From Polytrichum commune (Eukaryota > Streptophyta > Polytrichopsida > Polytrichales > Polytrichaceae), in contig OX485806.1 in the NCBI GenBank assembly GCA_950295325.1, positions 6,884,001-6,948,000 on the forward strand: a stretch of 64,000 nucleotides of DNA, given 5' to 3'. A model generated the notes under the pieces. The model worked only from the letters and a program-made list of their open reading frames with translations, made no database searches and was not told where the DNA came from. Shown piece after piece: positions 4,770 through 45,400 of this stretch. Numbering within the stretch: position 1 is the first letter of the stretch; each line of letters opens with the position of its first letter. The translations under genes were made by a program, and so were the position numbers.

Positions 4770-5420
4770 ACATTGGAATACGCAAACATTACAATAGCCT
4801 TTATAATCCTCAAAGTTTACGGACGCGCGTCCGTAAACTTTGTGGATCTTTGTGTAGGTGAGAAACAAGACTCTCAAACAACATATTACGCAAACGAAGC
4901 CAAATATTGTAATATTAGGCATATTAAAATAGCCTTTATAATCCTCAAAGTTTATGGACGTGCGTCCGTAAACTTTGTGGATCTTTGTGTAGGTGAGAGA
5001 CAAGCCTCTCAAACAACATATTACGCAAACGAAGCCAAATATTGTAATATTAGGCATATTAAAATAGCCTTTATAATACTCAAAGTTTACGGACGCGCGT
5101 CCATAAACTTTGTGGATCTTCGTGTAGGTGAGAAACAAGACTCTCAAACCGCATATTACGCAAACGAAGCCAAATATTGTAATATTAGGCATATTAAAAT
5201 AACCTTTATAATACTCAAAGTTTACGGACGCGCGTCCGTAAACTTTGTGGATCTTTGGGTAGGTGAGAGACAAGCCTCTCAAACAATATATTACGCAAAC
5301 GAAGCCAAATATTGTAATATTAGGCATATTAAAATAGCCTTTATAATACTCAAAGTTTACGGACGCGCGTCCGTAAACTTTGTGGATCTTTGTGTAGGTG
5401 AGAAACAAGACTCTAAAAAA
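4770..5420. repeat. 135-bp tandem array with a 32-bp palindrome in each unit
   Basis: Five palindromes start at 4811, 4946, 5081, 5216 and 5351, an exact 135-bp period. Each is CAAAGTTTACGGACG followed by its inverse, through CGTCCGTAAACTTTG. The first, fourth and fifth are perfect over 32 bp. The units are nearly identical and also carry a TGTAG|GTGAG motif. Because 135 is 45 codons, long repetitive frames stay open on both strands; these are artefacts. The array lies in the last leader intron of gene 1 (4736-5748). A shorter degenerate repeat of about 36 bp (TATGTAGGTGAGAAACAAGA) continues to about 5490. Confidence 0.93.
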
Positions 5421-5547
5421 TATATGTAGGTGAGAAACAAGACTCTCAAAAAAATATATGTAGGTGTGAAACAAGACTCTCAAAAAATATATATATTAAC
5501 CGTAACTTGAATACATTGATATTTACCACCATACTATCTTTGCGAAG

Positions 5548-5693
5548 TTTACGGACGCGCGTCCGTAACTTATAGAGATATTTGAGTATATAATATACGC
5601 GTTATGCGTATTTGGAAGAAATGTATCTTTTCATTTGGATCCAAAAATGTAATTGAGACAATTTGGAAAATTTTACGAACGCGCGTTCGTAAA
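5548..5693. repeat. Two more palindromes before the gene 1 start
   Basis: 5548-5568 has the standard core ACGGACGCGCGTCCGT. 5672-5693 is a perfect 22-bp palindrome with core ACGAACGCGCGTTCGT: both arms changed together (G to A on the left, C to T on the right), so self-complementarity is kept. Both lie in the leader intron just upstream of the ATG. Confidence 0.88.
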
Positions 5694-5748
5694 GTATGAT
5701 CTATATCTTTTGCCAAGAATTCTAACTTATCTATCTTATCATTTGCAG

Positions 5749-8700: not shown

Positions 8701-10157
8701 TATCTAATTTTCTTGTTATGGTCCAGATGCTTGGCTTGCAGGTGAATTCTTTTGTGCAGGATTCCGACTACGATGACGCCCATACTCACAGGGTAATGGC
8801 CTCCAAAATGGATATCCAGGACATCATGGACGTCCTTACACCCCATCCTGTTGTGCTTCTTTCTTCTAGAGAAGAGGCAATGCCCGGAATGGAGACAGAC
8901 CCTGAAGAGGACCAAGATCCCAGTTCCCCAAGAGCGCAACCCTCCACACAGGAGCCTTTATACGGCCTTGTTCGCGACCCAATTAATCCAAGTGCTTTCC
9001 TGCTGGGAACAGACGACACGGATGCGCAGGAGGCACGCGTGAACTTCACTCCGATAAGGGTCCCTCATACCCCTGTTCTCTCACCTTTTGGGACTCCCAC
9101 CTCTCGAGTTGGATTTCCCTCAACTGCGGGTCCATCTCGTGCTCCAGGAGTTATGGCCGAGAAGGATGTGGACCTTGCGGCAGAAGGCGGATGCACCGCT
9201 TCATCTGGAGGGGGATCTCAACATTCAGATCTACCCCCTATGGAGGGGAGGGATGTGCTGGAGTTGATATTGAGGCCTGATATCTCTCTATATCGTGAGA
9301 GTCGACGAAAGAGGAACAAGACGCCATACAACAAATACCCTGAAGGCGCGGTCTTGGAGCTCTCCGATGAAGACGAGGATGAGATTAGGATTCACAATGC
9401 CATCTCTGCCTTGCCTACGGAACCTGGCAAGGTGAAGAAAGAGCCGATGTCAGTGTCCGAATTGGACGAGAAGATGGAGAGGCGAATGAAGGAAGAGCTT
9501 GACCAACGGCTTCGAGAAGCTAACGAGGAGCACGCCAAAAAGATGGCCGCCATCCAAGCTGAGATGGAGCAAGCTAGGTTGGAGTCTGCTCGAAGGCACG
9601 CCGATCTCATGGCCCAAAATCAACAGTTCTTGGCCCAAAGTCAACAATTTATGAGCCTGATGCAGAGCTTGCAGGCAAGACCCCCTGTAGTCTATACAGC
9701 TCCCGATGCCGTCATGTCTATGCCCCCCACTCTCATGCGGCCTCCGTCTAGTAGCCATGCGGTGTATATACCCGAGCATGCTTATCCAGCCCCCGCGTTG
9801 ATTGTCCCGCCCTCTCCCCTTGTTGTCGCCACTCCAGAGGAGCCCTCCTCTCATCCTACAGGAGTGGAGGAGATACCGGCACGTGACATGGCGGGTGCCG
9901 CCGAGACAGATGTCAATGAAGGCAATGCCCCCATCGGCGATGAAGATGTACATATGCGGGGCAGCCAAGACTCCACAGATGAGGATCAGCCTTACGTGGA
10001 TACTCAAGGGTCGCAAGCGGCTGGAGACACCTTGTTGGTGGTCGAAGATCTGGACAATTTTGCGGACGCGCGTCCGGATCCTGTGCCCATGACGGGGCCA
10101 AGTGAGGGAGGCACTGCTGGCGCGGACCTCGCCCTTGAAGAGGTAATCAACCTTTGA
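5749..10157 (+). CDS. Gene 1: ParB/sulfiredoxin-like 'VDGQH' protein with coiled coil (exons 1-3)
   Basis: Exons 5749-7038, 7171-8490 and 8727-10142 join entirely in phase 0 (donors CAG|GTATGT, CTG|GTGAGT, GAG|GTAATC). Acceptors at 8742 or 8760 would also keep frame in exon 3. The start is the ATG right after the TTTGCAG acceptor. Exon 1 has a basic linker (KKKQVVPKRPKR, near residue 170) and FYIVDGQHSVMAAK near residues 333-346, like the (V)DGxHR motif of ParB/sulfiredoxin-fold proteins, with H-S in place of H-R. It then has a YWKAFVV...AISAFMNQGNK stretch that parallels the cargo pseudogene of the nearby MULE. Exon 2 is not recognised. Exon 3 is acidic and proline-rich with a coiled coil (ELDEKMERRMKEELDQRLRE onward). 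There are no internal stops, unlike the cargo relative. If intron 3 is retained the protein ends at 10157; if spliced it continues into the FCP1-like module. Function unknown; nuclear location is inferred. Confidence 0.62.
7056..7079. repeat. Palindrome in gene 1 coding intron 1
   Basis: ATTTACGGACG and CGTCCGTAAAT arms surround a central TG. It lies in the 132-bp intron 7039-7170, 17 bases after the donor. Confidence 0.88.
8537..8650. repeat. Three palindromes in gene 1 coding intron 2
   Basis: Copies at 8537-8560 (perfect, TTTT/AAAA flanks), 8582-8609 (mismatched core ACGACCGTGCGTCCGT, AATTTT/AAAATT flanks) and 8631-8650 lie at about 47-bp spacing in the 236-bp intron between 8490 and 8727. 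They fill much of the intron. Confidence 0.88.
10063..10076. repeat. Palindrome copy inside gene 1 coding exon 3
   Basis: CGGACGCGCGTCCG lies in the open frame and is read as Ala-Asp-Ala-Arg-Pro. It is a core-only copy (TG...GA flanks). A further near copy, ACGGACGCGCGTCC, follows at 10174-10187 in the next intron. A half-site (CACGTCCGTAAC) occurs in the downstream exon near 11599. Confidence 0.85.
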
Positions 10158-10482
10158 GCATGCCTCCCACGTTACGGACGCGCGTCCAAAACTTCCTTGT
10201 CTGCCTCCTTCGTGGCGTGTGTATATTATCGAGTTCAATCCTCGACTTCGCCCGGCGGGTGGATACAATTTTGTTAGCATAGATTCCATTAACTTCAACA
10301 GATATTTTTTGCGACAATGTATATTATTCACCAAATGTGTATCACCAATTACATTAATACCAATTTTTCAACTGGATGGTTCGGATTATTTTTGGCCTTA
10401 TAATTTGTGTTGAGTTTATCCATGCTTGTCAATTGGTTTTCTTGAGTAGTACCATTTACCTAGATAGAATGTTCCATCACAG

Positions 10483-11250
10483 GGTCCGTCGGAGATATGT
10501 CGCAACCCCGCGGGAAAACCAAGCGCGCCCATGATGAAACCGTTCATAATATTTGACCTCAATGGGGTGCTTTGTCAATCCAAACATATCTCGAATAGTG
10601 CGTCCAAGGGGCCCTTCCGTAGTCCACAAGACATGGATTACGGCGGACATTTCGATACTCTCATAAATAAGAAGGTTGTACGTGCCCGCCCCGGTTTGAG
10701 GAGCTTCCTTCGTGAGGTCCTTGGCTTCGCCCATGTCATCATCTGGAGCTCTATGCTCATGGACAACACGAAGGCCATCGTCGGTTTCCTTTTCCGAGAA
10801 CTCGCAATGCCATGCTTGCTTCTCGGTCAAGAACACTGCGATGACCTCTATGACCGTAGTGGCAATATTGTACCCAAGGTCGGAGGAGGTCGTGGGCCTC
10901 AATTCTTAAAGGTCCTGAGGAAGAACCTCTGGGTGGGCGTCCCTATGTTGGAGGGGGTTCCCCACGGTTGTTGGCCCACCCCGGATAACACACTCCTCAT
11001 TGACGACAGCCCGGCAAAGAGTATTCTCAATCCCCCGGGCAATTGCATATTCCCGGATCCTTGGGAAAGCGATAGAAATGACAACTTTCTAGAGAGTGAA
11101 CTAGGACCCTACATTAGGAGGCTTGCCTATCACCCCGGAAGTGTCCCGGATTTTGTGCTCTCCAACCCAATTGGCAATAGGCCTCTAGGCCCACAAGATG
11201 AGGAATTTAGGAGATTGTACGGCTACGCTAGACTCAATAAATTAATATGA
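10483..11250 (+). CDS. FCP1/NIF-like HAD phosphatase module (exon 4 of gene 1, or separate gene)
   Basis: The exon begins after a CCATCACAG acceptor. It is open from its first base in the phase left by exon 3, so a GAG|GTAATC to CACAG|GGTCC splice fuses it to gene 1. Alternatively translation starts at the ATG at 10531 (239 aa). HAD signatures are FDLNGVLC (motif I), VIIWSSM (motif II) and LLIDDSPAK (motif IV), in the spacing of FCP1/NLI-interacting-factor phosphatases that act on phosphoserine tails such as the RNA polymerase II CTD. The second catalytic Asp of DxDx(T/V) is Asn here (DLNGV), a change I recall from some plant FCP1-like proteins; activity may be altered. RARPGLRSFLREV is a typical inter-motif segment. 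Stop TGA at 11248-11250. Family call good, fusion moderate. Confidence 0.68.
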   Translation, partial: GPSEICRNPAGKPSAPMMKPFIIFDLNGVLCQSKHISNSASKGPFRSPQDMDYGGHFDTLINKKVVRARPGLRSFLREVLGFAHVIIWSSMLMDNTKAIVGFLFRELAMPCLLLGQEHCDDLYDRSGNIVPKVGGGRGPQFLKVLRKNLWVGVPMLEGVPHGCWPTPDNTLLIDDSPAKSILNPPGNCIFPDPWESDRNDNFLESELGPYIRRLAYHPGSVPDFVLSNPIGNRPLGPQDEEFRRLYGYARLNKLI

Positions 11251-25135: not shown

Positions 25136-26726
25136 GGGCGTTGTTTTTTTAATAAATAAAAATCATATTTAAGGCTTAAAATATATGAATAGGTTGACTT
25201 GCAACTAATTCTCCATGTTCTTTGGGTTGCAGTAAGTGAGCAAACCTAGAGCATGACCATGACCATAAATTTGTGGATTTGAATCTCTATATTTATTATG
25301 TCTATATATTTGATTGTTACATATGTATTGTTAGACAACATAGAATATTGTAAGCCCTAACAATACAAATGTTTGGCGTACATCTTATTTCACTATGTGA
25401 TGTGCCATTAACAATACAACTCATTATCTAGATGAGTGGGCATTCAAATTCTAAGGCCTTAAATTTATGAGCATATATTCTTAAACGCCTTAATAGCTAA
25501 GTTACCCTATACTGTTTCATACATTTATAAATTCAATATTCATCAATTTCATTATATTCCAAAGCAAGGGGCTTACTCATTCATTTCTAGAAGCCCATTG
25601 CTTAAGAGTAAATTTGTCCACTCTACCATCGATCAGACGTAGTTGAAGAAGTGGATATGAAAATTGTCTTAGAATAGGTGGCTTTGGTTTATTATCAATA
25701 GTCTAATTATCATTACATTAGTACATCGTAGGCCTACTCTATCACGTGATGACTATTGGAGCCTTAGGTGGTTGGCTTCACACATGGACACATCACTGCA
25801 TGTATAAGTGTCATAGTTGTAAACGATCATGGGCAAAAGAGAATAATCTAGGCATGACATATATTGCCACAAAGCAAGATACTATGAACAAACTTCTCAA
25901 ACCATAAACAAGGAGTGATGAACAATGTAATGGTAATGTTATGCAATGCAATACAATGCATAGCCTAAATAGATTATCAAGTTGAGAATAAACAAAATAA
26001 TCAAATGTGAGACACCAATTTGAGGGTTTTTTGTTTTGAAATCTTGATGTGTGTGTATTAACATTTTTTGCACTCTCTGCAAGGGAGAATTTGCTCATGA
26101 ATTAGTTTCACTTTGAGGATAAGATTACATGTTGAGTATTATTTCTTTGAAAAACTATGTTTGAGGGGTTTTAAAGAGTTGGAAATAAGATTCATCTATT
26201 TGGTCTGAGTTGTCAAGGATAATTAAATTAATGATAAGTGTATTAGATAGGTGCAATTACACTCATATTTTCCTTCACTTAGTTTCCTATGCACACATTT
26301 TGCATATTTATGGTACTATGAGCCTTGTATTTTCCTATCATGCATTCTAAAAAAAAGAATTTGTGGCTTCCATGACCTCAAATAACCAAAAATTACATTA
26401 AAAATAAAATAACATCTTGTAAATTCTCTTTAAATCACATTGCTGCATTTTTTGAATAGTGTAAGTTATTGCTTAAAATAGGTTTGTCTTAGGTAAATGA
26501 TGCACATATGGTCACCTTAGCAATATGGTAGTGCACATGAAAGAGAATTGTCCACACAAAAATGCCCAACCTTTGGTAGTACACATGTTCATAAAATAAA
26601 TGCAAATCTAGGAAGAAATATATTTAAATAATCAAATTAATTGCACAAGTAAAATTAGATTTGCAAATGCATGTTGTTGTTGCGAGAAACCACACATTGC
26701 ATAGAAACTATGATACATTCACCATG

Positions 26727-26800
26727 GGGAGTGCTATCTTATGAGCGGTGAGCAATGAGCGGTGAGCGATGAGCGGTAACTTATGAGCAGTGAGGAAGAT
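26727..26800 (+). repeat. Left terminal inverted repeat of the MULE
   Basis: After GGGGAGTGCTATCTTAT come tandem heptamers GAGCGGT, GAGCAAT, GAGCGGT, GAGCGAT, GAGCGGT, then a diverged TTATGAGCAGTGAGG. Such subterminal arrays are typical transposase binding sites; binding here is inference. Confidence 0.88.
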
Positions 26801-29800
26801 GAAAATTTTGGTAATAGGGCCACCAATATCCTATAACCGTGGAATTGTGGCCTTAAAAATGATGATTTTAGGGTTTAGTAATAAGAGGGTTGAGAAGGAT
26901 AAACAACATGAAGTCCAAAAATTTATTCATCAGTAGTAGCACTAGACATGAAACTATCTTTTGCCTCGTCATCTATATATATTCGAGCACCTTTGCATTG
27001 CGAATTGATTTTGGAACTATAGCAAGATTCTTCATTTGGATCCGAATCTTCGAGATTCAACATTGCAATTGCAACATTCTCGGCATATGATGGGAGACGC
27101 GGGCTACGGCTTGGACTTCGTAGGAATTGTCTATGTGCCCAAAACGGGAGACATGTCCTCTTTCCAATCGTATTTCTGAAATAAAATCGATGAAACATGT
27201 AAATAATGTGAAGAAATAAAAATGAACCAATGAATTGAATGAAACGAATGAATTGAATAAAAATTTATTGTATTAAAACTTACTCACACTCAAATTCAAG
27301 CATCTCCTCATCCGAGAGGTCATCATCTTCTTTTGTGAGATCTTGTATATTCTCCTTAGATGACCCCTCTTTCAAAACGTTTTCCAAAAGCGGTTTCAAT
27401 ATGTGCTCAAATATGTCATTATCACCCTCAAATGCAAGAAGATGTCTGCCTCATGCGCGTGTTGCTAGGATAGAAGCTCCAGTGGAACATGTCAAATCAA
27501 CAACGCGTCCATTCGATGGTGTAAACAATTCAATAAGATCTTGAAAAAAAACGCGGCGATTTTTTATATGGCCCCCTCCAAGGTCTTCCCGATTTTTTAA
27601 GAAGCATGTTTTTTTCATCCACAAAATTGAAAAGCAAGTTTTTGCTTTTCAATCCAGTGCCAAAAAAAATGGAATTTGGTTGTCTCGTGAATTTGTGGTA
27701 GTAAAATCCCTTACCAAGACATGAGCCATAAATGCCGGAGTCTACAAAAAAATGTAAATTGTGTTAAAACTATATACAATGCAAATAACACCAAAATAAT
27801 TAAATAGAAATAATTGTGATGTGTTATACTTACGGTGTAGGTTGGAGACTCCGGATCCTTGAACACCATGTACGAATTGAGGCAAATAAAAGTCCTAAGA
27901 ACTTTCATGTTGCCGTTGTGTAAGGTTGAATTCAAAACCTTCTTGGTTTGCATATCGATAGCAGAAAATACTATGAGGACGCCATCATCAGACAAGATGG
28001 ACTTGCACAAGGACATTGTTGCAACCATCCAGTTCTTGTCATATTTATTCCAAAGACGAATTTCAGCAGGTCTATTGGAGAGGTTGAAGTCAAGACCGTC
28101 GGGATATTGCAGAAAAACCAAGTCAACGGCAAATGGAGTCGGACTTCCCATGACATGAAATTCGCGATTGTCTTTGAACTGAAATACCACAACATATTAC
28201 AATATAAGACACAAAATAAAATCCAAATGAAAGTAAGAACATTACAGAAAATACCAAAACAATAATACTTACGTTTTCAAGAAATGCTCGCCATTGGATC
28301 CATTCAGGAGGGCCTACTTCAACCCCTTCAGACTTGTTCTTGACAGCAGTAGATCGAGCAAAAGAGAGCATGAGAAAGTTCTTCAGTATGAATAACTTTT
28401 TTTTCAAAACATTCGTTGGTGCACGATGAATAGCGTCATAGGTGCTGGAGTAATGAAATTCCAATACATCGCACCCAGACTTTGAACTTTCGCCTCCAAG
28501 TGGATTCTTATCCAAATCATTGGAAAGAACAAGCAATTCTTCATGTTGTGAAATTTCCGATTGACCTTGTATTTTGGTTTCAGGAACATGTTTCCTCTTA
28601 CGACGTTTTGTCTCTTTTGGTTCTGGCTCTCTAAGTGTAAGCTGCACAATTTGTGCTTGCAAAATTGCAGTATCACGAGGATCCACATTTTTAGCATCAT
28701 TTATCTGACGGATTGTCTTCTCACTTGACGGACATGCATCCTTAGGACAATCAAGATACCAACCACAATCCTCATAGTGTGGGAGCGACCAATCCAAACA
28801 AATCTCAGTAGTGAACATGCATGAATCTCCTGCACCTGTGTCACGCCAATTTGGGAAAAAACGAGGTTCCCCTATAACGCATTTATGTGGAATCAAAACA
28901 TATCGAAAATACCTACACACAAAAATATTGTAAGTCAAATATTCCATAAAAATTTGACAAATAGAATCAAAAAAATCAAAAAAATAATAAGATTAGGTTG
29001 TACCTGTATAATACACGTTTCATAGCAAGATCAATATTAGGTTGCTCATCCCAACCGTTGTGTTTTTGAACTTTTCCGCTTTGGAATTCACGATAAAATA
29101 TTGAATTGAAAGCCGCAAACTTCTAGGTTTGGATATACTCGGAGAGAGTAGGCACATCTGTAGGCAACTGAAGAGGAGATGAAAGAATACTTTGAAGCTC
29201 TTCGATAGCATTTTTTTCCAACTGTGCCCAATATGTAGACTTTGATAACCAATCATCAAGTGCAGAATTAGAGAGGGGTGATTTCGGGAAATGCAATGCA
29301 TCTTTGTCAAATCTATTGCCATTCCAAAGCTTGAGCCATCGAACTTTGACTTCTGCATCCACATTACTGACAACAACAAGATGAAGTTTCTCTTGTAGCA
29401 TTTCAGGCACCGAAAATGAACCCCAATGGTACTTAACTTCTTCAAGGAAAGCAGAGGTAAGGTTGATGTCGGCAATCGCTAGTTGTTTCGTAAAACTAGA
29501 AGATAACATTGCACGTTTTTTGTTGACAGCTGCGGACATTGCTTTTGAAACTCCGTCTGATGTCCGTTCAAGAGGATGAGTTTTATTGTACTGGTTGAGA
29601 GCAATATCGATAGCCTCAACAAGTTCTTGCTGAAAAATCAAACAAAAGTCATCAATATTTATAAGTACATATAGATGTAATGTAAAATGAAGATGAATAA
29701 ACATAAGGCACATATTAGCAATGGTAGAAGAACTTACACTGTACATGTAATCCAAAAAAATTAGTCGTGTCAAAGAATACCAAGTTTCGACGGACTTCTC

Positions 29801-30965
29801 CTCACATCGTTTATAACTCTTTGGATCCAGTTGCTTTCTGAAGGAAGTCAAAGGCATGGTGCCAATACTTTGCATCCGATATAAAGTATGCACCAAATTG
29901 GTGGATACGTGAGAATTTCCGGTTGACCTAAAAAAAACATTAAATTGATTAGATTCATGATGGTATAATTTGGAAAACAAAATATAAACTAGAAATAAGT
30001 GTAAAAAAATAGGTAAGAACATTACTTGTTGATGTCATGCATAGCAGTTAACAAACTTGGAATGTCGTCAGACTCGGGCGCCAAAATGATAGAATCCACA
30101 AAGACATGACGTTCATAATCTTCGGTATATACGCGGTCAATATAATTTCTCCAAGCAAAAAATCTGTGATTTCCATCCCATATAAAAAACATCTTGTTTT
30201 TTTATAACGTCAATGATAAATCTGTATCCAATTGAGATTCAAACATGGCATTGGCTTGAGCCCCAATTTGGGCTCCAAGATAAGCGAACCTCATCATCCA
30301 CAAATTGAAAGTTTCCCTTAGAATCAGTGGCCGATATATAAAACACACGGTCACCATCACGATAACCATTGAAAAAATCAGCCTCCAATTTAGTAATGTC
30401 ACCCTTCAAAGCAGGACGCACAATCGGCATAGGAACCATGCGACAAAAGGGTATACGCAAGCGAGCATTAGGTCCAGTACGGATTGAGAAATTGTGGAAG
30501 TGGAATTGACCTTTCGTATGTTCGTAAGCTCCCACACTTTCTCTTGATAAATTTTATTGTCACCATCATTATCTTCATCCGAATCAAAATTATCGAGGGA
30601 TTCATTTATTTTTTTCTTTTTCTTATTATGAAGATTTGACGATATGTCCTGATGATGATGAACTTATTGAGATGGACGATCTTGAGTTGAATGCATTGTG
30701 GAATCATCATCAGTAGAAATAGGAGTCGTTCTCTCTAAATCCATTGATTGGTCCTAAAACAAATGAAATAAGTTTCATAAATATTTCAAAACCAGTAGCA
30801 ACACATTAGCAATAACATTACAAAAACAACAGCAATAGCAACAACAATAACAACAGAATACCACGAACACAGGAAAGAATGACAAAAACTATTCTAGACA
30901 CTGTCATTTGCAACTTTAAATATTGTGCGATTAGGGTGGCCGCTCACCCCAAAACTACAAGGGCA

Positions 30966-30991
30966 GACCCTGTGTGTTAACGCACAGGGTC
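30966..30991. repeat. GTGCGTTAACGCAC palindrome, near-perfect copy
   Basis: GACCCTGTGTGTTAACGCACAGGGTC has one arm mismatch. It stands 40 bp from the start of the GGGTCG array. Confidence 0.85.
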
Positions 30992-31030
30992 TGTGTGTCC
31001 AACTACAGGTCTACCAAAGTTGGGCGCGAG

Positions 31031-31341
31031 GTTTGGGTCGAACGACCCAAACTGTCCACACGGTTTCGATCGAGTGACCCAAACTTTCTGCGCGTGGTTT
31101 GGGTGGCTCAACCCAAACTGTAAGCGTGGTTTGGGTCGTTCGATCCAAACTAGGCAGACAGTCTGGGTCGAGCGACCCAAACCATGCTCACAGTTTGGGT
31201 CGTTCGACCCAAACGAGGCAAACAGTTTGGGTCGTTCGACCCAAACGAGGCAAACAGTTTGGGTCGAACGACCCAAACCACGCTCACAGTTTGGGTTGAG
31301 CGTCCCAAACCATGCTCACAGTTTGGGTCGAACGACCCAAA
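31031..31341. repeat. Array of ten 22-bp palindromes, 32-bp period
   Basis: Units of the form GTTTGGGTCG-NN-CGACCCAAAC (core TTGGGTCGAACGACCCAA) alternate with about 10-bp spacers such as CATGCTCACA or GAGGCAAACA. The centre varies (AA, TT, AG, AT) while the arms are mostly kept. The second and third units are degenerate, the later ones nearly perfect. Confidence 0.93.
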
Positions 31342-31574
31342 CTGTCCGTAATTTACGCCTGATTATGTGCCATTACCCAGTCATCACGAAAGTGCAAACA
31401 AACCTTGTACTGCACCTGTAGATGAAAGAGCTTGCAGCGACGAGCTCAGGTCCGATAGATGAGAGAAAAAAGATTAAATGCTTTGGGGGTGTGGCAATTT
31501 ATACTACTCATCCCTATAGCCATATTTAGCGTGGCTCTTCGTCGCCCCGCATAGCCGCTAGAAAGTTGCCAGCG

Positions 31575-31706
31575 TAGACCCTGTGCGTTAACGCACAGGG
31601 TCTACTTGCCCAACTTTGCGAAGCCTCTAGCTAGGCAAGTAGAGCTGGCAACTTTGAGGCCACTGTGCATTAGCGCATAGACCCTGTGCATTAACGCACA
31701 GGGCCA
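31575..31706. repeat. GTGCGTTAACGCAC palindromes, perfect copy and diverged copies
   Basis: 31,575-31,604 is a perfect 30-bp palindrome around CCTGTGCGTTAACGCACAGG with TAGA/TCTA outer arms. Two more diverged copies follow at about 31,662-31,706 (GTGCATTAGCGCAT and GTGCATTAACGCAC). Confidence 0.9.
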
Positions 31707-32149
31707 AGACATGAATTTGAAAAAAAACTTTTTTTTTAAAGTCTGGAATTGGTAGATTTACCAAAACTTGTAAAATCTAGAAAAAATGCTAATGGGATCC
31801 AAAATAAAAATGAAAAAATGCTATATTATCTAAATATCCGTAGCTACAAATTCTTCTCATATTTTGTTTTGGTTTGAAATCATTTTCTTTTCTCATTCTT
31901 CTATCTATTTCCTTGTTTTGGGCCACCTCGTAGATTTTGGGTTTCGGGGCCAAAAAAAAATTAATGCTATTTTGTGTCATTTTCTAGCTCCTATAACGTA
32001 TTGCATGGATACTTGAGTAGACATATTTCTCATTTCTTGCATTCTAACCCCGTTTTGAATAGTTTTTTGCTCCTACGCTCTGAACATCGATTTAAATTCA
32101 TACAATAGATATTTGTTTTACTTTTAGGCTCTCCTAGTCGTTTTACCTC

Positions 32150-32460
32150 CCAACTTTTGGCCTTCCTAAGTTGCTCTTACAAACCCTGTGCGTTAACACA
32201 TAGGGTTTTACCTCCCAACTTTGGCCTTCCTAAGTTGCTCTTATAAACCCTGTGCGTTAACGCACAGGGTTTCTCCTCCCAACTTTTTGCCTCCTAAGTT
32301 GCTATTACAAACCATGTGCGTTAACGCACAGGGTTTTAGCTCCCAATTTTTGGCCTCCCTAAGTTGCTCTTATAAACCCTGTGCGTTCTCCTCCTGACTT
32401 CTAGCCTTCCTAAATTGCTGTTATATACCATGTGCTGCTGTGCATTAACGTATAGGGTTT
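32150..32460. repeat. About 64-bp tandem repeat, each unit with a GTGCGTTAACGCAC palindrome
   Basis: Units contain CCTCCCAACTT, TTGGCCTTCCTAAGTTGCTC and a 28-bp palindrome AAACCCTGTGCG...CGCACAGGGTTT (32,181; 32,245; 32,309), then half or mutated copies (32,374; near 32,430). The 32,245 copy is perfect. The period is about 64 bp. Confidence 0.9.
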
Positions 32461-34784
32461 CTCCTCTCCAATTTATAACCTCTATAAATTGCTACTACAT
32501 GATATGTGAGTGAACGTACAAGGTTCTCCGTCCTAACTTACAACTTATGCACTATCAAATTATATGAACGTTGAACTAACTTACCTTTTTGTTTGTCGTC
32601 TTCTTTGAACCCGTCTTCAATTCGGACTCTGGTATATGATCGTCTACATCTTCTTTTCTTTTTGCACCTTCATCATCCTCCATCGCATCAAAATCCAGTG
32701 TCTTCACAGTTTCTTCTACCGTATTCAATAAGTTTTTTTTCCCTTTCTTATTTGCATTCTTCTTTCTCACACTCAGTCTGAACCTCTTTTTCTCGGAAGT
32801 GAAATACAAAGCTTTCATACGTCTTCTCTTCAGCCTCACGGGTGTTCTCTCTACATTGTCCACCATCGTTGGTGTCTATGATATGTTTTCTATCAGGTAC
32901 TATCATTTATTCTTCTAATGTATCTATCTTACAAAATCCAGCGTATATTACGATCACGTGTTGTAATTGGCGTTCAATGAACGAGATATTTCGACGCGTT
33001 TGTCATTATGTGTTTATTTTTGTTATATCCGCCAAATTTTTTTGACACCTACTTTGTTCTATTCATAATGATCAATAATTTATTTTTCCAACCAATTTTA
33101 ATTCTTTCTACATCTACACATATATATTTTAAATTTCTACCAATACTTTTAGTATTTGACGTCATTTTGTGTATATCATGCTCGTAAATATTCTCTGACT
33201 ATTATTGTGTTATGTCCACTTCCGTATTATTAGATGCTATGTATCACACGTTTTCATGTCCATCCATTATTGTATCACATGTTTTCATTTCCATTCATTT
33301 CCTCACACAACTCTATACAAAAGCAACATTCATCCCATATTTTTGTGATATGTTGTTCATATGTTCTTTTGTTTTTCTATGGCTACCATTAGAGCTCATG
33401 GATCTTTTGTTCCCTTCATCTTGCCATTCCAAGATGATGGTCATATGAGTGTTTCAGAGGATTTACTTAGTTTGAGATTCAACCTCCATATAGCAACCAT
33501 GTATTTAGAGTATGAGATATACTCTGCAGATGGAGAGGTGTATGAAACGATTTTGGTTCCAAAAAATAGAACTGATATTGGTTTTATGTGGATCTTAGGA
33601 CCTGGTCCATTTAGGATGATAGGACTTTCTGAGTCTCAGATGCAAGCTTCAACTGTCATTTTGACAAACGAATCCGGTACATCCACAGTTCAAATTCCCT
33701 CTATCGCACCTGTTAAGGTGGAACCCCTTGATGATAGTGTGTTTGTGCTATCAGATTCAAAAGATGACATTTGTGCATCTGTTGATCTTTCAAACACATC
33801 GCCATTTCCATTTAAAAGTGTTCATTCTATTCCTTCCCAACTTCCTATACATGTAGCCAAATTCCCTTGCGGTCTTATGTACAAGAAGGTGGTTTCCCAA
33901 ATTTCACCTTCTCAACGTCCTCCACTACACCCTTCACCTTCATCTACAGGGTTGACTATGGTTCATGCCTTGAAGCTGACAAAGTCAAGAAAAAAATCAA
34001 AGTCCGATCTTGCATCCATTGATTTTGACAATATAGATGTTCATGAAGTCAAGTACTTACCATCTTCTTTTAATGGTAATGTTTTGTTTCTCTTGCCTCC
34101 TGTGGCATTCAAAGCTCCAAGTACGTATGGTCGCTCAATGGACGGCATGGACAAGATGTGTGACGGTCACCCTTGGTGCACCACCAAAACCACGAATATC
34201 CAAAATGACTTTGGACTGTCCTTCCGGCGCTCTACTTGTGTTGGTCATCTCCAATGTCATAATGACTACTGTAATTACATGAATCGCAATGGGGGCCTCC
34301 GGAACAATATTGAATGGGCCGGTTCAACTCCTATCCCATTTGCTGTGGGTGTTGTTCCCCTTACTAAGTCCACTATCAAGTGTAAGGTATGTCGTTCCAC
34401 ACCTGTGTGCATTGCTTTGTGTAATGCTCGAATCATATACATCCACTCCATATCCGTTGGAATGTCCAGGGCTTAACTACAAGGAAATGGGTGTATAATT
34501 GACAAAAATGTGACACTAAAATGTCCGAAGTGACAAAATCAGCTCAAAGCTATGAGTTTTTGTCAATTCGGACATTATTCAAAATTTGTGTCAATTTTGT
34601 GTCATCAGATTTATATATTTCACGTTTAACTTATTCCCTTCACCTGAGCATGTGTCTCATATTTATTAACAACAAAAGGTGTTACAAAAGGTGTTACAAA
34701 AGGTTTTTAATTATTGTAATTACTAGTATAAGTAATTAATATAATTAATGTATTTACTATAATTAATGTAATAACTAATTTAAT

Positions 34785-35040
34785 TAATTAATGTAAATAC
34801 TGAAATTACCAATTTAAGTAAATACTGAAATTACCCTTTTGAATAAATACTGAAATTACCAATTTAAATAAATGGGGAAATTACCAATTTAACTAAATAC
34901 TGAAATTTGCTAATTTAAGTAAATACTGAAATTTGCTAATTTAAGTAAATATTGAAATTTGCTAATTTAGGTAAATACTGAAATTTTCTAATTTAAGTAA
35001 ATACTGAAATTTGCTATTTTCAGTAAAATACTGAAATTAT
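34785..35040. repeat. AT-rich tandem repeat inside the CACTA element
   Basis: About nine units of AAATACTGAAATTTGCTAAT or ...ATTACCAATTTAAGT, period about 28-29 bp. Confidence 0.85.
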
Positions 35041-35267
35041 TGTAATTAATGTAGTTAAAATAATTACAATAATTACTGTAATAATGTTTAGGAGTATTTT
35101 TGTAAATTGTTTTTAATACAAATACAATACGTACTAATTAAAAACAGTAAATACATTAATTCTATGCTTGTTTTTACTTTCACTAATTAAAAAATATATA
35201 TACATAAGTTTATAAGTCTTATGGCTTCTTCATACAAAACTCTTACATACTTGGCCTATATCATGTA

Positions 35268-35470
35268 ATGAGCGGTGGCTTAGTGGCTAAGGCCTTCACA
35301 CTATAGCCAAGAGGTTCAAGGTTCGATCACCTTGACCCCTCACCCTTGGCTTCGCCTAAGGTAGGTAGGTGGCTTTGTCCATTAGCCTAGGTTAGGTGAG
35401 GTGGCCCTTCGCCCTTAGACCAATGTGAGTAGGCCCCGAATGCGAGGGTAGATTACTAATTTAGGATTTT
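35268..35470 (+). mobile_element. tRNA-derived SINE nested in the CACTA element
   Basis: An A-box-like TGGCTTAGTGG (35,277) and a B-box GGTTCGATCACC (35,330) have tRNA spacing and are followed by a non-tRNA body and a T-rich end near 35,470. It cannot fold as a full tRNA, so a SINE head is favoured over a tRNA gene. Target duplication not resolved. Confidence 0.75.
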
Positions 35471-38439
35471 TTTACTAGTATAACTTGGACATTAAACCAC
35501 ATCACCATGGGTAAATGACGAGGTAAAGAGAATCCAACATGGCAAGGGGGCCGGAGTAAATGGAATCCTACGTGTATAATTGTCCCAGATGACAAAGAAA
35601 TTGACAGAACTCTGTTAATTGTATGACCGAATCAAGGTGCCCTATATGACACCCAAATTAACAGAATTTCGTCACATTTTTGTCAAATAGGTCATATAAA
35701 CTCTTGTAGTGCTTGCATTCATCTTGGTGTACATGATCACCCTGTGGCCAATGACACATACCGTGAATCATTGGACATGACATACCAATGCGTTGCAAAT
35801 GAAGTATTGAAAACACCCACAGCAAAAAATTCAGCCATAGTTATGGCGGCGAGCAAACAATTCTTGGCCGATTATCTTCTCAAATCTCCCGCAAATATCG
35901 AAGGCCATCACTTGGTTGGTTCATCCCTAGAGGTCGTCATGGACAAATTCAGCACTCTTGCGTCTCCAAATTGTCGTAACTTTGTATCTGGATCAAAGCG
36001 TTTTTTGCGTAGTGGAATGGGAATTATGGATAGTATTATGGCGTTCAAAGACCACTTTGCTTTCAAATTCGTCCATGGTAGTCGGTTCCCAGGGCAGTCA
36101 AAGGACAAAGTGTTTGTTTTTAAGATGTATGTAGACCTTCTAGATAGTGGTGTGGAGCTTGTGAAGAGGATGCAAGTCGGTGGGGATATGGAGAATTCAT
36201 GGATTATGTTTGACCATGTCAAACGTTTGAAGGACTGGACGACCATGGCTTGCCTTGTGTACGACAATCGATACTGTAAAGTGTTGACTATTGCGTGTTG
36301 TGACATGCAATCTGAAGATGGTGCAGTACAAATTCTCTTTTGGGAAAATTTGAATGCTGTCATGGCAGAAAATGGTGTACCAAACGTAAACTTCAAAGGA
36401 TTTATGACTGATAGTGCTCAAGCTAATTGGAATGCGGTGAGGGTGATTTACGGGGATGGTGATCCAAGTCTACCCATGGTTGCACGTGAGCGTACATGTC
36501 TTTTCCATTGGACCGCAAGCTTGGATAAGGTGACCCAAAAGTATATCAAACCATCCTTGCAATTTCAATACAAACAAATATGTAAGAATTACAAAGACGC
36601 GAAAACAATGGACGATGCTGAGACCAAGTACCATGTGATTCGTTCTTGGTGGTTGTCATCTGGAGTTGCCTCCGAAGAAGGCATCCTTGGCCTTTCAGAG
36701 TGATTGGGATTTTGGCACTTTCGTTACAGACAATGGAGTGGCCATATGCTACTTGTAAGTACATATCAAATTTCATTATTCAATGTAATATATCTTATGT
36801 TTTTCTTATGTTTGTCTTTCTGTGTTGTTCATAGGATATGACAATAGAATAGCGTGCGGGAATGCCAACATGCAACCTTGCAGAGACTGTACACAACAAA
36901 TGGCTCCAACAGTCCGGCAACAAGATGACTTGTTTATATGAAGCTACATTGGACGACATGATCCGTGCCTTCATGCAAATTACAAATTACCGGACATGGT
37001 TGAAAGGGGGGTATGATGGTAAAGGTCCTGATTCGGCCTCCTTAAAATTCAAAGCAGCTACCAGGTGTGGAGATCCAAAAATGTTGGCTGATGCCATGAA
37101 GTCTTACCCAGGGGCAGAAGACGTCAACACTAGAGATTGTGCATTGGAAGGATCAGAGCTCTTTGGTTCCACCAAACGCAAACTCAACCTACCACCGGGT
37201 GCTGATTGTGACTCTCATCGACCCGACAAAGTGAACTATTTCATTCTTCGTCCCAACACCCGAGCAACTCGTCAACGCATAGAGGAATCGTTGAGTTCTG
37301 CAATTCATGGTGTGGCTCATACTACATCCGTGTTAGAGACTGATTGTCTTGCTTCCAACTGGCACATTGCAAGATTACCACCCAACTCAGCCAAACGATG
37401 TTGGGCACTGCAGGCCATTACAGGGACTATGTGCAATGCTAAAATCGGGACTGGGAAACATGGCACACCTGCCCCAACATACAAAGGGCTCAGGAAGGAA
37501 TTTCGATCTCCCAATAATGTGGAATATGAATTTTGGTTTTGCCTTGACGACATCAAGCGTTGTGTGAGTGGCAATAAGAAGAAATATGTGTTGGACTGGC
37601 CTATAGTACCCAACACGTGGCCGGTGAAGATAGGTACCAATCTATCGAGAGAGGATGTTTTGGCACTTGAAGATGCTGGATTTCAACTACAGCAGAGGGA
37701 GGCATTGTCCCCTCGTCGTAGGCTTTCAACAATTGCAACTCTCCCCATCCCTCGCTCGCATTTTTCTATGCCACCAAACCCGGATGCCCACCCTACATTC
37801 AGGTTTGGGAAGACAGTGCGTCGTAATCCAACAACACCGCTACCGGATCACAAAAACAAATGGAAGAGTGTCGGACTCATGGAGGATTACTATGTGGTTG
37901 GGATCACTGCCATTCCATATCCGGGCTTTGGAGTGATAATCAACATTGTCTCCAAGCAAGATATCACATACCATGTCACAATTGGCGACATCCTGCATTG
38001 CACATGCCCGGATTTCACGAAAATGTCCTCTTATGCATTGGGAAAGAAAGGAAAATGGGTGTATTGTAAACATCTTTATTATGTGTTTAGATTTTTGTGC
38101 AAGGTGAATTACGAGAGTGACAAGTTCATTCATGCACCTACATATACCTATAACGAGGTCATGCGACTACTTGAACTTGCTGGTATTGTAGAGTGTGAGT
38201 AGTATTGCAAATGGTCTATTAAGTACCATATATTTGAATGTCAAAAAATGACATGTTTTGGTTTGGATTGTTATAATAAAAATTAGCAATGGACTGGAAG
38301 TATTTCCAATGATCCACGGTAATACGATTCCTTCTTGCTTCATTTGAACTCTTTACATTTGAAAATCTTCAATTCATGTAGTACTATATTTAGTTCATGT
38401 ACCCTAAACCCGTGCACCTTTACTATTTTTGAATTCATT

Positions 38440-38544
38440 ACTCATATATTACCGCTCACTGCTCATGTCGTATTGCTCGCTGCTCATGTCTTACTGCTCA
38501 CCGCTCACTGCTCATTGCTCATCGCTTATAAGATAGCTTCCCTC
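38440..38544 (-). repeat. Right terminal inverted repeat of the MULE
   Basis: Read inward on the minus strand: GAGGGAAGCTATCTTATAAG, then GCGATGAGCAATGAGCAGTG and further GAGC(R)(R)T heptamers. The array is longer than on the left. Confidence 0.88.
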
Positions 38545-39179
38545 CATTCACCATATCCAAATTTGGGTAGAATATCTTCAAAGGGCGCAAGTATTCTTTG
38601 TCATTAGTAACCAATTGGAGTACTAGTGATTTCATTGGAATCCAATATTCTTAGATTTGACTTGAAATTTTTGTTTTGGTTGTACTTTAAACTTCCTTAT
38701 CATAATTGGACTTGGACTTGTTTTGAAAAAAATATGGCTATTAAAGAAATGATACACTTCACATGAAAAGGGTTAGCCTTAATGAACCATTTAATCTTTT
38801 GATATTCTTATATTTATTTACTTAAAGAGAAGTGTTTTTGTGATATAGTTTTGACTAAGGTGATTTGCATAGGTAAATAAGCAATACATTTGCAAAGGCA
38901 ACCCAATTCCACATATTAGACCTAATTACACACATTATTGTAACAGTTAGACCCAAGAAATATTGTACTTAGGTTTAATCTTGTCCCATGCAGCTCGGGC
39001 AATTTGGGCAGCTTATAAATACATTTAGCTGCCCAAGGTTTGAAGGATTTTTATCCTTAACCTGCTCATGAAAAAAAAACTTGATCATGAGGACCTGCTA
39101 TTACCCAAACATGAACCTGCCCATGAAATAGAATTACCCAAACATGAACATGCCCATGAAACAACATTCCTCCCGCAGT

Positions 39180-40501: not shown

Positions 40502-41261
40502 GGGGCCATTCACAGTTGGGGTACTACTTTTGGGACAAAGGACTTAAGGACTTTGTCGCATTGATCTTGGTTTTTATCATGATTTACTATTATTTGATCA
40601 ATAAATTTTACATAAATAAGTAGATAGTTCAAAAGCTTTATCAAGAAAGTTTTTTATTATTATTTAATAATCACCCTAAACCCTAAACCCTAAACCCTAG
40701 GCCACATCAGTGGCATTTTTTTGCTATTTAGGTGTGCATCGGTGGTCAATTATTTCTTGTTATGTATCTTGGTACCTTAGTAAAAGTGTCATGTGTCCAT
40801 TCATATAAAATTTTTTGTCCAATTCTAATACTAGACGTTCCTTTTACGTGTGGCCGTGAGTATATGTATATTTGGACATGTTTGGTGCCACATGTAAAGT
40901 TGGGCAATTGCTATTCAATACATATTTGGTTCTATTGGTACACACTTGAACGATGAGTGTGAGGAAAAAATTTGGGATCGTTTCGATTGATTCTTGTTGT
41001 CCTTTTCAATCCTTGATCCTAAGGTGAACAATTAAGACAACACTCCTGAATGTCCTTTAAGGAATCAAAAGGATATCTTAGATGACCCTATTCCTTCTAA
41101 ATTAACTTTGTCAGTGTACTCGATATGGAGTATAAAATGTAGGTATGATCCAAAATATGCTTCACAATACAAATCTAAGCATACCAAGCATGTGAAGTTA
41201 TCCAAAAAAGTCCGTTTTCCGTTAGACGGCCAAAAGTAGTACCCCAACCGTGAATGGCCCC
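40502..41261. mobile_element. 760-bp non-autonomous TIR element
   Basis: The ends GGGGCCATTCACAGTTGGGG and (inverted) GGGGCCATTCACGGTTGGGG continue together through TACTACTTTTGG, giving TIRs of about 32 bp with one mismatch. The 4-bp repeat TATT flanks it on both sides (40,498-40,501 and 41,262-41,265). No transposase. A CCCTAAA run (40,672-40,700) lies inside. Superfamily not assigned. Confidence 0.82.
40672..40700. repeat. Telomere-like CCCTAAA run inside the TIR element
   Basis: About three and a half CCCTAAA heptamers in tandem. Confidence 0.85.
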
Positions 41262-42463: not shown

Positions 42464-45400
42464 CTATACATCCTTGATTGTCATACATGATGGATGTTGT
42501 TCATTCTTGCACGAACCCCATATTCGCCAAAAGTTATCTAAGCCGACTGGCCTCCTTCGTGCAATGGCTAGTGGCCATGTACTCTGCCTCTGTTGTAGAT
42601 CATGCAATGGTTGGTTGTTTCTTGCATTTCCACAAAACACCTCCAACGCCCACAAAGAACGCGTACCCCGTGGTGGATCTATGGTTGTTTACGTCTCCCC
42701 TCCAATCAACATTACAAAATCCTTCAAGGCAATAAACTTGCCTCCGAGACATAATATAAAGTCCAATGTACCCTTTAAATACCTCATGATGCATTTTACA
42801 CCCTCCAATTTGGTAGACCAACCCTAGATTTAAATTGAATTACCGTACTTATTGCAAATGCAAGATCAGCCGTCGTGACCACTATTGCATACATGCGTGA
42901 TCCTATTGTCATCTTGTATGGAATGCCTTCTAGTATTCCTTGCACATTCCCAAATTCCTCATCTGAAAGTCTTAACAACTTGAAGTTCACATTGGATGGA
43001 ATTCTGACCAATTTGCATTTTTCCATGCTTAAGGACCTCCTAAATATATCTCCTTTGGCTCATGATATTGGTACGGGCTTTCTTATTTCTCTCAAATTTC
43101 ACTCCAAAACAATAGTGCAACTCTCCAAGATCATTCATTTCAAATTCCTTCTCAAGCTTTGACTTGAGCCACTTCAACTTAGCAATATCACTTGCCAAAA
43201 TGATAGAGTCATCGACATAAAGGGTTACAATCAACAATAATTCACATGTTTGTTTGATGTACAATGAATGGTCCATTTGGCTCCCGGAAATCCCCTCGTT
43301 GATAAATAACAAGCTGATTCGGAGGTACCATATACTACTCAATAATTCCTTGAGACTATATAATGTTTTTTTGAGTTTCCAGACAAAACGTTCTTTTTGC
43401 TTTTGTACAAATCCCTCAGATTGATCCATGTAGATCTCCACCTTCAAATTTTCATTAAAAAATACATCCTTTATATCTTTTTGGTGGATCTCTCAATTTT
43501 ATGGCGGCTCTAATTACAAGTATGTATTTAATGGTGATGAACTTGGTAATGGGGACAAATGTCTAAGTGAGGTTTACTCCGACAACTTGAAAATATCATT
43601 TTGCTACCAACCTTGCCTTTTGTCTAACAATTTGGTCTAATGCATCCCTCTTTGGTTCAGAACACTCATTCTCATCCTACACTCTTGTGATCCTTCACAA
43701 GAATAATTAATTCTCATATTTAATTGGCCATGAGCGAACTGTATTCTCTTTGAATTATGGCCTCCCACTTGCTTGCATTTTTGGATTTCATGGCTCCACA
43801 TAATTTCAAATAAACATCAAAAGATGCCACATTGGCCGTTCTACATCATGTTGAGGCAAAATGTGATTTTTCCACCACTCTTCATGCGGTCAACACTCTC
43901 TTGTGGGATATCTTCGCTCTTTGGCGAGTCTCTCCACGTCAACATCATTTCTTGCAGATCTTAACTTTGTCTCTTGATTTGCAATGTGGTAGTTCCTCAC
44001 TTGCTCTTTACGCTCCTCAAAAACTTTACCAAGATCAACTAAAGGTAATTTGGAAGATTTTCCTCCGCATTCACCATTGGGGTTTTATTTTTCCACTTGG
44101 ACGCAACTTCAAATCGTTCCCAACACGTGTATTATCCTCCATGAACATAACATCTCAACTTTTGATGATCTTTTTGGTTTGCACATACATAAGCTTATAC
44201 GCTTCAGTACCTTCACAATATTCGAGAGACAAAGATTTGATATTTTTTATATCAAACTTACTCCTCTTTCTATTGGACACCATCACATATGCAATGCATC
44301 CAAACACATGCATGTATGTTACCCAAGGCTTTCTCACGTTCTTTCAGGTGTAATCAAGGGCAAAGATCTTGTAAGACATAAATTGTATGTGTAAACTGTA
44401 TTCGCCATCGATCCCACCAAAATTGACTTGTTGAGCTTTTGACCATGAAACATACTCGTCACCATCTCCATGATGGTGCACTTTGCATGCTCCACCACTC
44501 CATTTTATTAAGGCCTATACATGGCGGATGTTTGCTTCTCAATGCCATGTTCATTTAAAGAAAAATTAACTTCTTTTAAATGAACTTCTCATTATTTTCC
44601 GAGTGAAACACCTTGATCTTATACTCCGGTTGCGTTTCCGCAAGGGCCTTAAACTCTTTGGACATCTCCAAGAGATCTCTTTAACATGTACACCTATACA
44701 TTTAAAAAAAAATTTGTCAATGAAGTTGATAAAACATCTTACATCGCTTATGGATGTGATTCTCAAGGGGCCACACATGTCCGAATACACAAGCTCTAAA
44801 GGCTTAGTTGGTCGCCTCCTCCGTCATTAGGAAACGCTGCCCAATGTTGTTTACCCTCAATGCACGCTTCACAAACCAACTAAGATGTTGGATATTTTTT
44901 ATTGCCAAGGTGAAGGTTCACACCACTTATCATGTTTTGAAGTACATAAACACTCTTCGTATTCAAATGCCTATATTAGTGATGCCAAAATTCAAGTGCA
45001 TGGTCTTTATTTAATGTTTGCATGAAGTTGGTTGGAACTGCTCCATGCACCTTAGTGAAATTCATTTGATACAAGTTGTCTTTATATAGGGCTATTGCAA
45101 TAAGTTTACCATCGCTATTTTTTACAATGCACTCGTTTAGGTTAAATTGCATCTTCAAACCGCTTGACAAAAAATTTATTTGCAATTTAGGCATATGGAG
45201 GACATCATTGATACAAAGTCACTTGATTTTACCTCTCACTACTACTTTAACAACAATGGATCCCATTCTAATTGTTTTCACGACGCTGTCATTATCCAAA
45301 TAGATATTGCGTAAAGCAATTATCTTGTATGTCTCAAATGTCACCCTATAGGTAGTCATATACTTCATTGCTCCCAATTTTATAATATACTTATACATGA

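Follow-up and report, generated by a model that had tools for sequence, protein, structure and literature searches.

Accessory proteins of the ParB-methylase type in algal transposons and motif arrays of the VANC type in VANDAL elements are already known. According to the relevant passages of its description, Sola1-1_Ec32, a 21.5-kb Sola1 element from the brown alga Ectocarpus, carries an accessory gene for a ParB and DNA-methyltransferase protein, and similar ParB-methyltransferase proteins are reported there for green and red algal transposons (PMC12477816). As described in passages of the respective papers, VANC of the VANDAL elements in Arabidopsis acts via lineage-specific tandem-repeat motifs and removes methylation from matching copies (PMC5735166; PMC10398659), the ParB-family protein VirB acts as an anti-silencer (PMC10653881), and Mutator-like elements (MULEs) have target-site duplications of 8-11 bp (PMC6446971). 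Here we analyse a MULE-like element from Polytrichum commune, located at 26726-38544 of a 64,000-nucleotide stretch of contig OX485806.1 (hereafter the window), which carries a cargo gene for a ParB/methylase-like protein opposite to its transposase gene. The cargo gene is an element gene kept by purifying selection, and at the loci examined it is exchanged together with an adjacent palindrome array as one cassette, so that several homologous proteins, each beside its predicted DNA target, can be compared under a near-constant transposase.

The element is bounded by terminal inverted repeats (TIRs) that can be aligned over ~70 bp with 83% identity and is flanked by an exact 10-bp target-site duplication, CATTCACCAT, i.e. 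it is the complete Mutator-like element that a preliminary description based on the sequence alone had proposed; the right limit given there (38544) is correct, the left one (26727) has to be moved by one position. CATTCACCAT is frequent genome-wide (1016 forward and 981 reverse matches in the 408-Mb genome of 64 contigs), with a further match in the window at 44068-44077, and its evidential value therefore lies in its placement at the element edges. Ten further full copies, picked among cargo-transposase pairs, were fetched (n = 11 with the window copy); they are 11.6-12.0 kb long and all have both termini. Exact target-site duplications are present in 10 of the 11 copies, nine of 10 bp and one of 9 bp (L013), and were not found in L015, though both termini are present. 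The cargo frame is open in three of the 11 copies (L001, L003 and L011). Thus, the intact copies with fresh duplications of 9-10 bp that the preliminary description had suggested looking for exist with respect to the duplications and, in a minority, to the cargo frame, and these two features identify the family as recently mobile. The window copy itself is a dead, worn member of this family, as its cargo contains six in-frame stops when aligned to the L011 frame and its transposase gene is disrupted by a 1,240-bp insertion. By eye, the region near 35270-35340 within this insertion has a tRNA-like look, and ARAGORN reports no tRNA. The fetched copies possess ~0.5 kb of extra right-end DNA past the transposase stop that resembles a duplicated transposase tail and that the window copy does not have.

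Genome searches were scored for the best 150 of 1405 candidates of the methylase-like part of the cargo and for the best 94 of 3322 candidates of the C part of the transposase, and many close copies of both were found among them. At 69 of the 94 scored transposases a cargo gene lies divergently upstream within 25 kb, in 57 cases at a distance of 7-10 kb (the count used 118 listed first-part cargo matches and omitted C-part matches), as compared to a mean of 0.35 and a maximum of 3 in 200 trials of random placement. The exact left end occurs at 57+56 sites in the genome and the exact right end at 91+77 sites; among the ends listed (100 of 113 left, 100 of 168 right) 45 left-right pairs are 5-20 kb apart and no pair is closer than 5 kb. 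A cargo match lies within 3 kb of 89 of the 100 listed left ends (122 cargo positions, orientation ignored), and the other 11 cannot be taken to lack a cargo, given that scoring covered 150 of 1405 candidates. Of the 21 cargo matches on contig C1, 17 are accompanied by an exact left end at a distance of up to 3 kb and four are not. Taken together, cargo and transposase recur as one unit, which was the supporting outcome named in the preliminary description. Candidates for the counter-evidence named there, copies of the TIR family without cargo and cargo genes without TIRs, make up a small share of the listed matches, and the fam3 and fam4 elements described below carry a diverged cargo instead of none.

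The cargo gene model, derived from copy L011, comprises seven exons, rather than the eight proposed earlier; the exon borders follow GT-AG and the product has 1,076 aa. Comparison of two subfamilies (4 against 3 copies, L005, L015 and L019 being outside the groups; any codon containing a gap or a stop was skipped) yields a rate of nonsynonymous substitution (dN) of 0.035 and of synonymous substitution (dS) of 0.185 for the whole cargo, i.e. a dN/dS of 0.19, and a dN/dS of 0.14 for its ParB-like part; the values for the two parts of the transposase are 0.52 and 0.32. Against the window copy, dN/dS is 0.20 for the cargo, 1.01 for the N part of the transposase and 0.23 for its C part. It is on the dN/dS of 0.19 that the cargo is regarded as a selected gene of the element, which bears out the earlier suggestion that the element maintains it. 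As dS is very uneven within the cargo (ParB part 0.47, methylase part 0.03), recombination among copies is suggested.

The region between the two genes contains palindrome arrays that the preliminary description did not contain (Table 1). They are built from two motifs, A and B, both of which are present in 11 of 11 copies, the number of units differing from copy to copy. In the ten full copies that were fetched, motif A is additionally found between the two transposase frames, in what is presumably an intron. The information content over 111 units of motif A is 1.79 bits per position in the half-sites, as compared to 0.79 in the flanks and 0.25 at the two central bases; the half-site value is somewhat inflated, since sites with no more than two mismatches served as seeds for the units (7 of the 111 units have more than two). 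This combination of conserved half-sites and a free centre looks like the footprint of a protein.

Three cargo lineages, fam1 (described so far), fam3 and fam4, which are ~23-46% identical, exist under nearly one transposase and terminus. Fam3 was reached by searching the genome with the N6_N4_Mtase profile (PF01555), which gave five matches; fam3 elements account for two of them and contigs C10 and C12 for the other three. The C10 and C12 matches are above the cut-off and have open frames; these are minor contigs, possibly bacterial contamination, and the contigs beyond C7 sum to ~1.7 Mb. Fam3 shares with fam1 the left terminus and 184 bp of subterminal DNA (84% identity) as well as the C-half of the transposase (87%), and at both fam3 loci the blastn similarity to fam1 ends at element position 184 and restarts at 6838. 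Its cargo is 23% identical to that of fam1 (E 3e-36), and its array consists of a different palindrome, TGTTTGTGCGC[C/T]AGCGCACAAACA. Four of the 25 transposases (of 94) without a scored fam1 cargo were fetched, resulting in one fam1 and three fam4 elements, and five more of the 25 adjoin fam3 matches, as read from two lists. The fam4 cargo is 24-46% identical to the fam1 cargo in the matching stretches, the DNA is 90-91% identical to fam1 from the transposase start onward, and the left ends were not found within the DNA fetched for the three loci.

The fam4 palindrome, AATAAGGGTGGCCGTTAACGGCCACCCTTATT, has 32 exact sites in the genome, 18 of which are at most 12 kb away from a scored transposase (94 in total) and 14 near none of them. 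Within this distance it accompanies 8 of 22 transposases without a scored fam1 cargo and none of the 72 that have one (Fisher 2.9e-6). At the fam4 locus L042 (contig C7) the array is much expanded, with 37 sites as compared to 11 and 12 at the other two fam4 loci. When five palindrome types were counted in 20 loci (12 fam1, 2 fam3, 3 fam4, 1 E2, 2 E3; E2 is described below), the type tracked the lineage with one motif-B-like match in G3b, a fam3 locus, as the sole off-type count, and the reversed-sequence control for these 20 loci gave 0. At the loci examined, cargo and adjacent palindrome array are thus swapped as one cassette, the left terminus being constant where it was seen.

The methylase-like part of the cargo is recognized by several profiles. 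N6_N4_Mtase matches fam3 with 32.8 bits and fam1 with 20.1 bits (E 6.7e-4), i.e. above and below the curated cut-off of 26.7, respectively; PHROG DNA methyltransferase profiles match fam1 (phrog_67, E 3.4e-8) and fam3 (E 0.014). A five-sequence profile finds DpnA in the PDB (E 1.6e-4), mostly via the region of motif I; a second, weak alignment (2.3 bits) places motif IV on sequence of the DPPY type. A phmmer search with the fam1 methylase part gave no match in the PDB. A tblastn search against phages returned 36 records, the 20 listed ones at E 3e-3 or weaker, and a search for relatives found one in viral contigs (L044) and none in bacterial and archaeal genomes.

The catalytic motif of N6_N4 methylases is canonically of the DPPY type, [DNS]PP[YFW]. 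Motif I (VVDLTCSTGAS in fam1) is found at 10 of 12 fam1 and 2 of 2 fam3 loci; motif IV does not follow the canonical form in any lineage. It reads VDLVFLQ[F/Y]PDG at 9 of 12 fam1 loci, QFLDG at one and was not found at two; in fam4 it is DYPDG at both loci that cover the region (the exon borders in the fam4 methylase row of the alignment were guessed and joined manually, and the reading of motif I in that row hinges on this); and in fam3 it is DIPYG (L035) or DIPDG (G3b). The fam1 cargo is therefore probably not active as a methylase, judging from these residues, whereas the fam3 cargo could be active because the viral methylase L044 also reads DIPY, as seen in its DNA. The ParB-like segment is of the type F.IWDGNHR...AW, and WDGN(H/Y)...AW occurs at 10 of 12 fam1, 2 of 2 fam3 and 2 of 2 fam4 loci; in fam1 the segment received no score from any profile library. 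Of the earlier label ParB/DNA-methyltransferase-like, the methylase likeness is thus corroborated by profiles and the ParB likeness is a motif recognized by eye. DUF1985 and DUF287 were not found in a Pfam scan of the 1,076-aa product.

The transposase gene lies on the opposite strand, as stated previously, and between the three cargo lineages its C part retains 87-94% identity. The SWIM finger claimed for it corresponds to a weak profile match that, at 12.4-13.0 bits, stays under the cut-off (19.6). Pfam gave no match in the 712-aa N part and no MULE match for the transposase, and a D...CxFH stretch can be seen by eye.

Table 1. Features of the element in the window.
Feature	Position	Strand	Basis
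Left target-site duplication CATTCACCAT	26716-26725		Exact match, position
Left TIR with GAGCGGT/GAGCAAT-type short repeats	26726-26802	+	Start identical in 10/10 fetched copies
Cargo exon 7, C-terminal tail	26923-27175	-	L011 model mapped on window
Cargo exon 6, C part of methylase-like domain with motif I VVDLTCSTGAS; broken in window copy	27284-27741	-	L011 model mapped on window
Cargo exon 5, N part of methylase-like domain with motif IV region VDLVFLQYPDG	27834-28178	-	L011 model mapped on window
Cargo exon 4	28273-28912	-	L011 model mapped on window
Cargo exon 3; window copy has a TAG stop near 29125	29004-29629	-	L011 model mapped on window
Cargo exon 2	29738-29927	-	L011 model mapped on window
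Cargo exon 1, ParB-like segment FFIWDGNHRFFAW; frame broken in window copy	30026-30744	-	L011 model mapped on window
Motif B palindrome CAGACCCTGTGTGTTAACGCACAGGGTCTG, beside cargo start	30964-30993		
Motif A array, ~10 units x 32 bp, GTTTGGGTCG-NN-CGACCCAAAC	31031-31343		
Two motif B palindromes	31574-31703		
Motif B array, 64-bp units, AAACCCTGTGCG-TTAA-CGCACAGGGTTT	32140-32387		
Transposase N part, split by the nested insertion	33433-36820	+	Frame, copy comparison
Nested insertion, 1,240 bp, inside transposase; foreign to family	34471-35710		None in 10/10 other copies
Transposase C part, SWIM-like CxC...CxH	36835-38199	+	Weak SWIM profile match
Right TIR	38468-38544	-	Alignment with left TIR
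Right target-site duplication CATTCACCAT	38545-38554		Exact match, position

The window contains a second ParB-like family. Its gene (5653-10157, + strand) has the motif IVDGQHSVMAA and a PHROG ParB-like match of E 0.028, and its palindromes, TTTACGGACG-CG-CGTCCGTAAA (TTTACGGACGCGCGTCCGTAAA), are distributed over 4806-10172 in and around the frames and in an upstream tandem array of 135 bp. The family is high-copy (111 scored of 1084 candidates, with copies elsewhere in the genome that are up to 100% identical) and its palindrome has 878 genomic sites. Just downstream, at 10468-11250 (+ strand), lies a frame resembling an NLI-interacting-factor phosphatase. A methylase-like nature of the second family (7102-8619) was considered on motifs seen by eye; PHROGs and Pfam gave no support and it is not claimed. 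E2 (L031+L032) is a diverged sibling of this family, with proteins that are 28-36% identical (E 3e-45 and 4e-70) and the phosphatase-like gene downstream in both (E 2.5e-51). E2 carries motif A in place of the second family's own palindrome. Motif A (GTTTGGGTCGNNCGACCCAAAC) has 9,231 sites in the genome, the same pattern read backwards has 0, and among the first 100 sites listed there are three large clusters on contig C1, at 0.62, 1.18 and 2.12 Mb, each with an E2 match. As motif A occurs in both element families, fam1 may use the site of E2. Elsewhere in the window there are short interstitial ACCCTAA telomere-type repeats (1295-1354 and 40673-40699) and a protein kinase gene, whose product matches B-lectin at a score slightly short of the cut-off and S-locus and PAN weakly; Rfam gave no match in the whole window at the gathering threshold.

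Binding sites of bacterial ParB proteins are palindromic. The simplest functional reading of the cassettes is that each cargo protein recognizes the palindromes beside its gene, and we consider it fairly probable that the cargo recognizes the palindromes that belong to its lineage, its most likely role being that of an anti-silencing factor similar to VANC. In this mechanism the cargo protein would bind these palindromes as a symmetric dimer or clamp and, once bound, would keep the promoters of the element out of silent chromatin, as VANC does for VANDAL elements, and the methylase-like domain might bind S-adenosylmethionine or flip bases, in the fam1 lineage probably without methylation. Anti-silencing by self-recognition is favoured by analogy, because VANC uses lineage-specific tandem motifs and VirB is an anti-silencer of the ParB family. 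Thus, from the earlier proposal that the cargo serves to mark or recognize the element's own DNA, recognition gains support from the co-variation of cargo and palindromes, whereas marking is weakened by the Q[F/Y]PDG sequence at 9 of 12 fam1 loci. Several observations weigh against our interpretation. The main weakness is that the cargo adjoins the array, so that one recombination event would move both without a functional tie, and the lineages compared are few, with fam3 known from two loci and fam4 from three. Fam1 has two palindrome types, one of which, motif A, it has in common with E2, and motif B is hardly more conserved than its own repeat unit (1.61 vs 1.45 bits). The methylase-like part has the highest dN/dS within the cargo (0.48; 4 x 3 copies), the Pfam scan of the fam1 cargo gave no ParB match, and comparison of the fam1 cargo with the second-family proteins of the window, relatives of E2, revealed no significant similarity (best E 0.21). 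Single-sequence AlphaFold models of the second family (pLDDT of 34.2 for the ParB-like and 33.0 for the methylase-like part) were unusable and were not used.

If the coupling of cargo and array were physical linkage only, the arrays might be binding sites of the transposase or structural DNA. The adjacency of array and cargo and their joint change fit this explanation; it is nevertheless quite unlikely, as the transposase remains near-constant in its C part while cargo and array change together, and the arrays lie in the middle of the element. Moreover, motif A is found also between the transposase frames and in E2, and its conserved half-sites and free centre resemble a protein footprint. An active self-methylase, in which the ParB part would target the element and the methylase part would write N4mC or N6mA, would agree with the N6_N4 domain family, with the retention of motif I in fam1 and fam3 and with the DIPYG of L035, whose DIPY recurs in L044, and self-modification has been proposed for the algal relatives by the authors of that work, in the passages concerned (PMC12477816). 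Nevertheless, the catalytic D and the aromatic residue of DPPY are altered in most fam1 loci, and fam4 and the fam3 locus G3b deviate as well, so this activity appears unlikely for the cargo. Host sequence is often captured by MULEs, as stated in the relevant passages of PMC6446971, and the cargo might accordingly be a passive host gene fragment of the Pack-MULE type. We reject this origin as highly improbable on the dN/dS of the cargo and its recurrence in most scored copies, to which the open frames can be added; the PF01555 hits are confined to fam3 and contigs C10 and C12, and as this search missed fam1 and fam4 it leaves room for a diverged host gene.

Beyond self-recognition and anti-silencing by the cargo, we tentatively speculate, with considerable doubt, that at least two kinds of plant transposons without significant protein similarity have evolved modules similar to ParB/parS. 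A ParB-(pseudo)methylase might load on the palindromes of its lineage, spread and hold off silencing, with cassettes being exchanged, fam1 either poaching the E2 protein or having converged on motif A, and the origin being independent of VANC. If the anti-silencing reading favoured above is right, site-specific proteins that protect transposons from silencing have more than one origin in plants, and these elements would be a source of DNA binders specific for long palindromes. With several homologous cargo proteins, each beside its predicted target, the evolution of specificity and the role of ParB-methylase accessory genes in transposons become directly testable.

In the open-licence literature searched, no ParB-methylase module in a MULE was recognized among the papers listed, and a review from 2026 on how plant transposable elements capture genes has neither 'ParB' nor 'methyltransferase' in its main text (PMC13317346). 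Three features are apparently new, i.e. not found in print in this literature: that the module occurs in a MULE-like family of a land plant, that it is coupled to palindrome arrays specific for each lineage, and that the cassettes are exchanged. The element shares with the MULE superfamily the TIRs and the 9-10 bp duplications, resembles it by a weak, sub-threshold SWIM-like match at the C-terminus of the transposase, and differs in that the transposase lacks a Pfam MULE match. DpnA and other N6_N4_Mtase enzymes have the motif order of the cargo, IV then I, and match it by profile, whereas motif IV is altered in fam1 and fam4; the likeness to VirB and ParB/parS rests on the WDGNHR motif. In Sola1-1_Ec32 the accessory gene likewise lies opposite to the transposase gene and encodes ~1,100 aa with ParB-like and N4/N6 methyltransferase domains, whereas the passages that describe it make no mention of palindrome arrays, cassette swapping or an altered catalytic motif, the comparison being one of descriptions (PMC12477816). 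VANC differs from the cargo in its domains (DUF1985/DUF287) and its motifs, such as YAGTATTAC, which stand against a ParB/methylase-like protein and long palindromes here, and an anti-silencing effect would be transferred to the cargo by analogy; as far as the passages on VANDAL elements go, it is otherwise a close parallel, being an accessory protein of a MULE whose lineage-specific motifs evolve fast in non-coding tandem repeats under a far more conserved transposase (PMC5735166). The concerted change of protein lineage and tandem motif lineage that characterizes VANC is likewise seen here, across the 20 loci and at the cassette boundaries.

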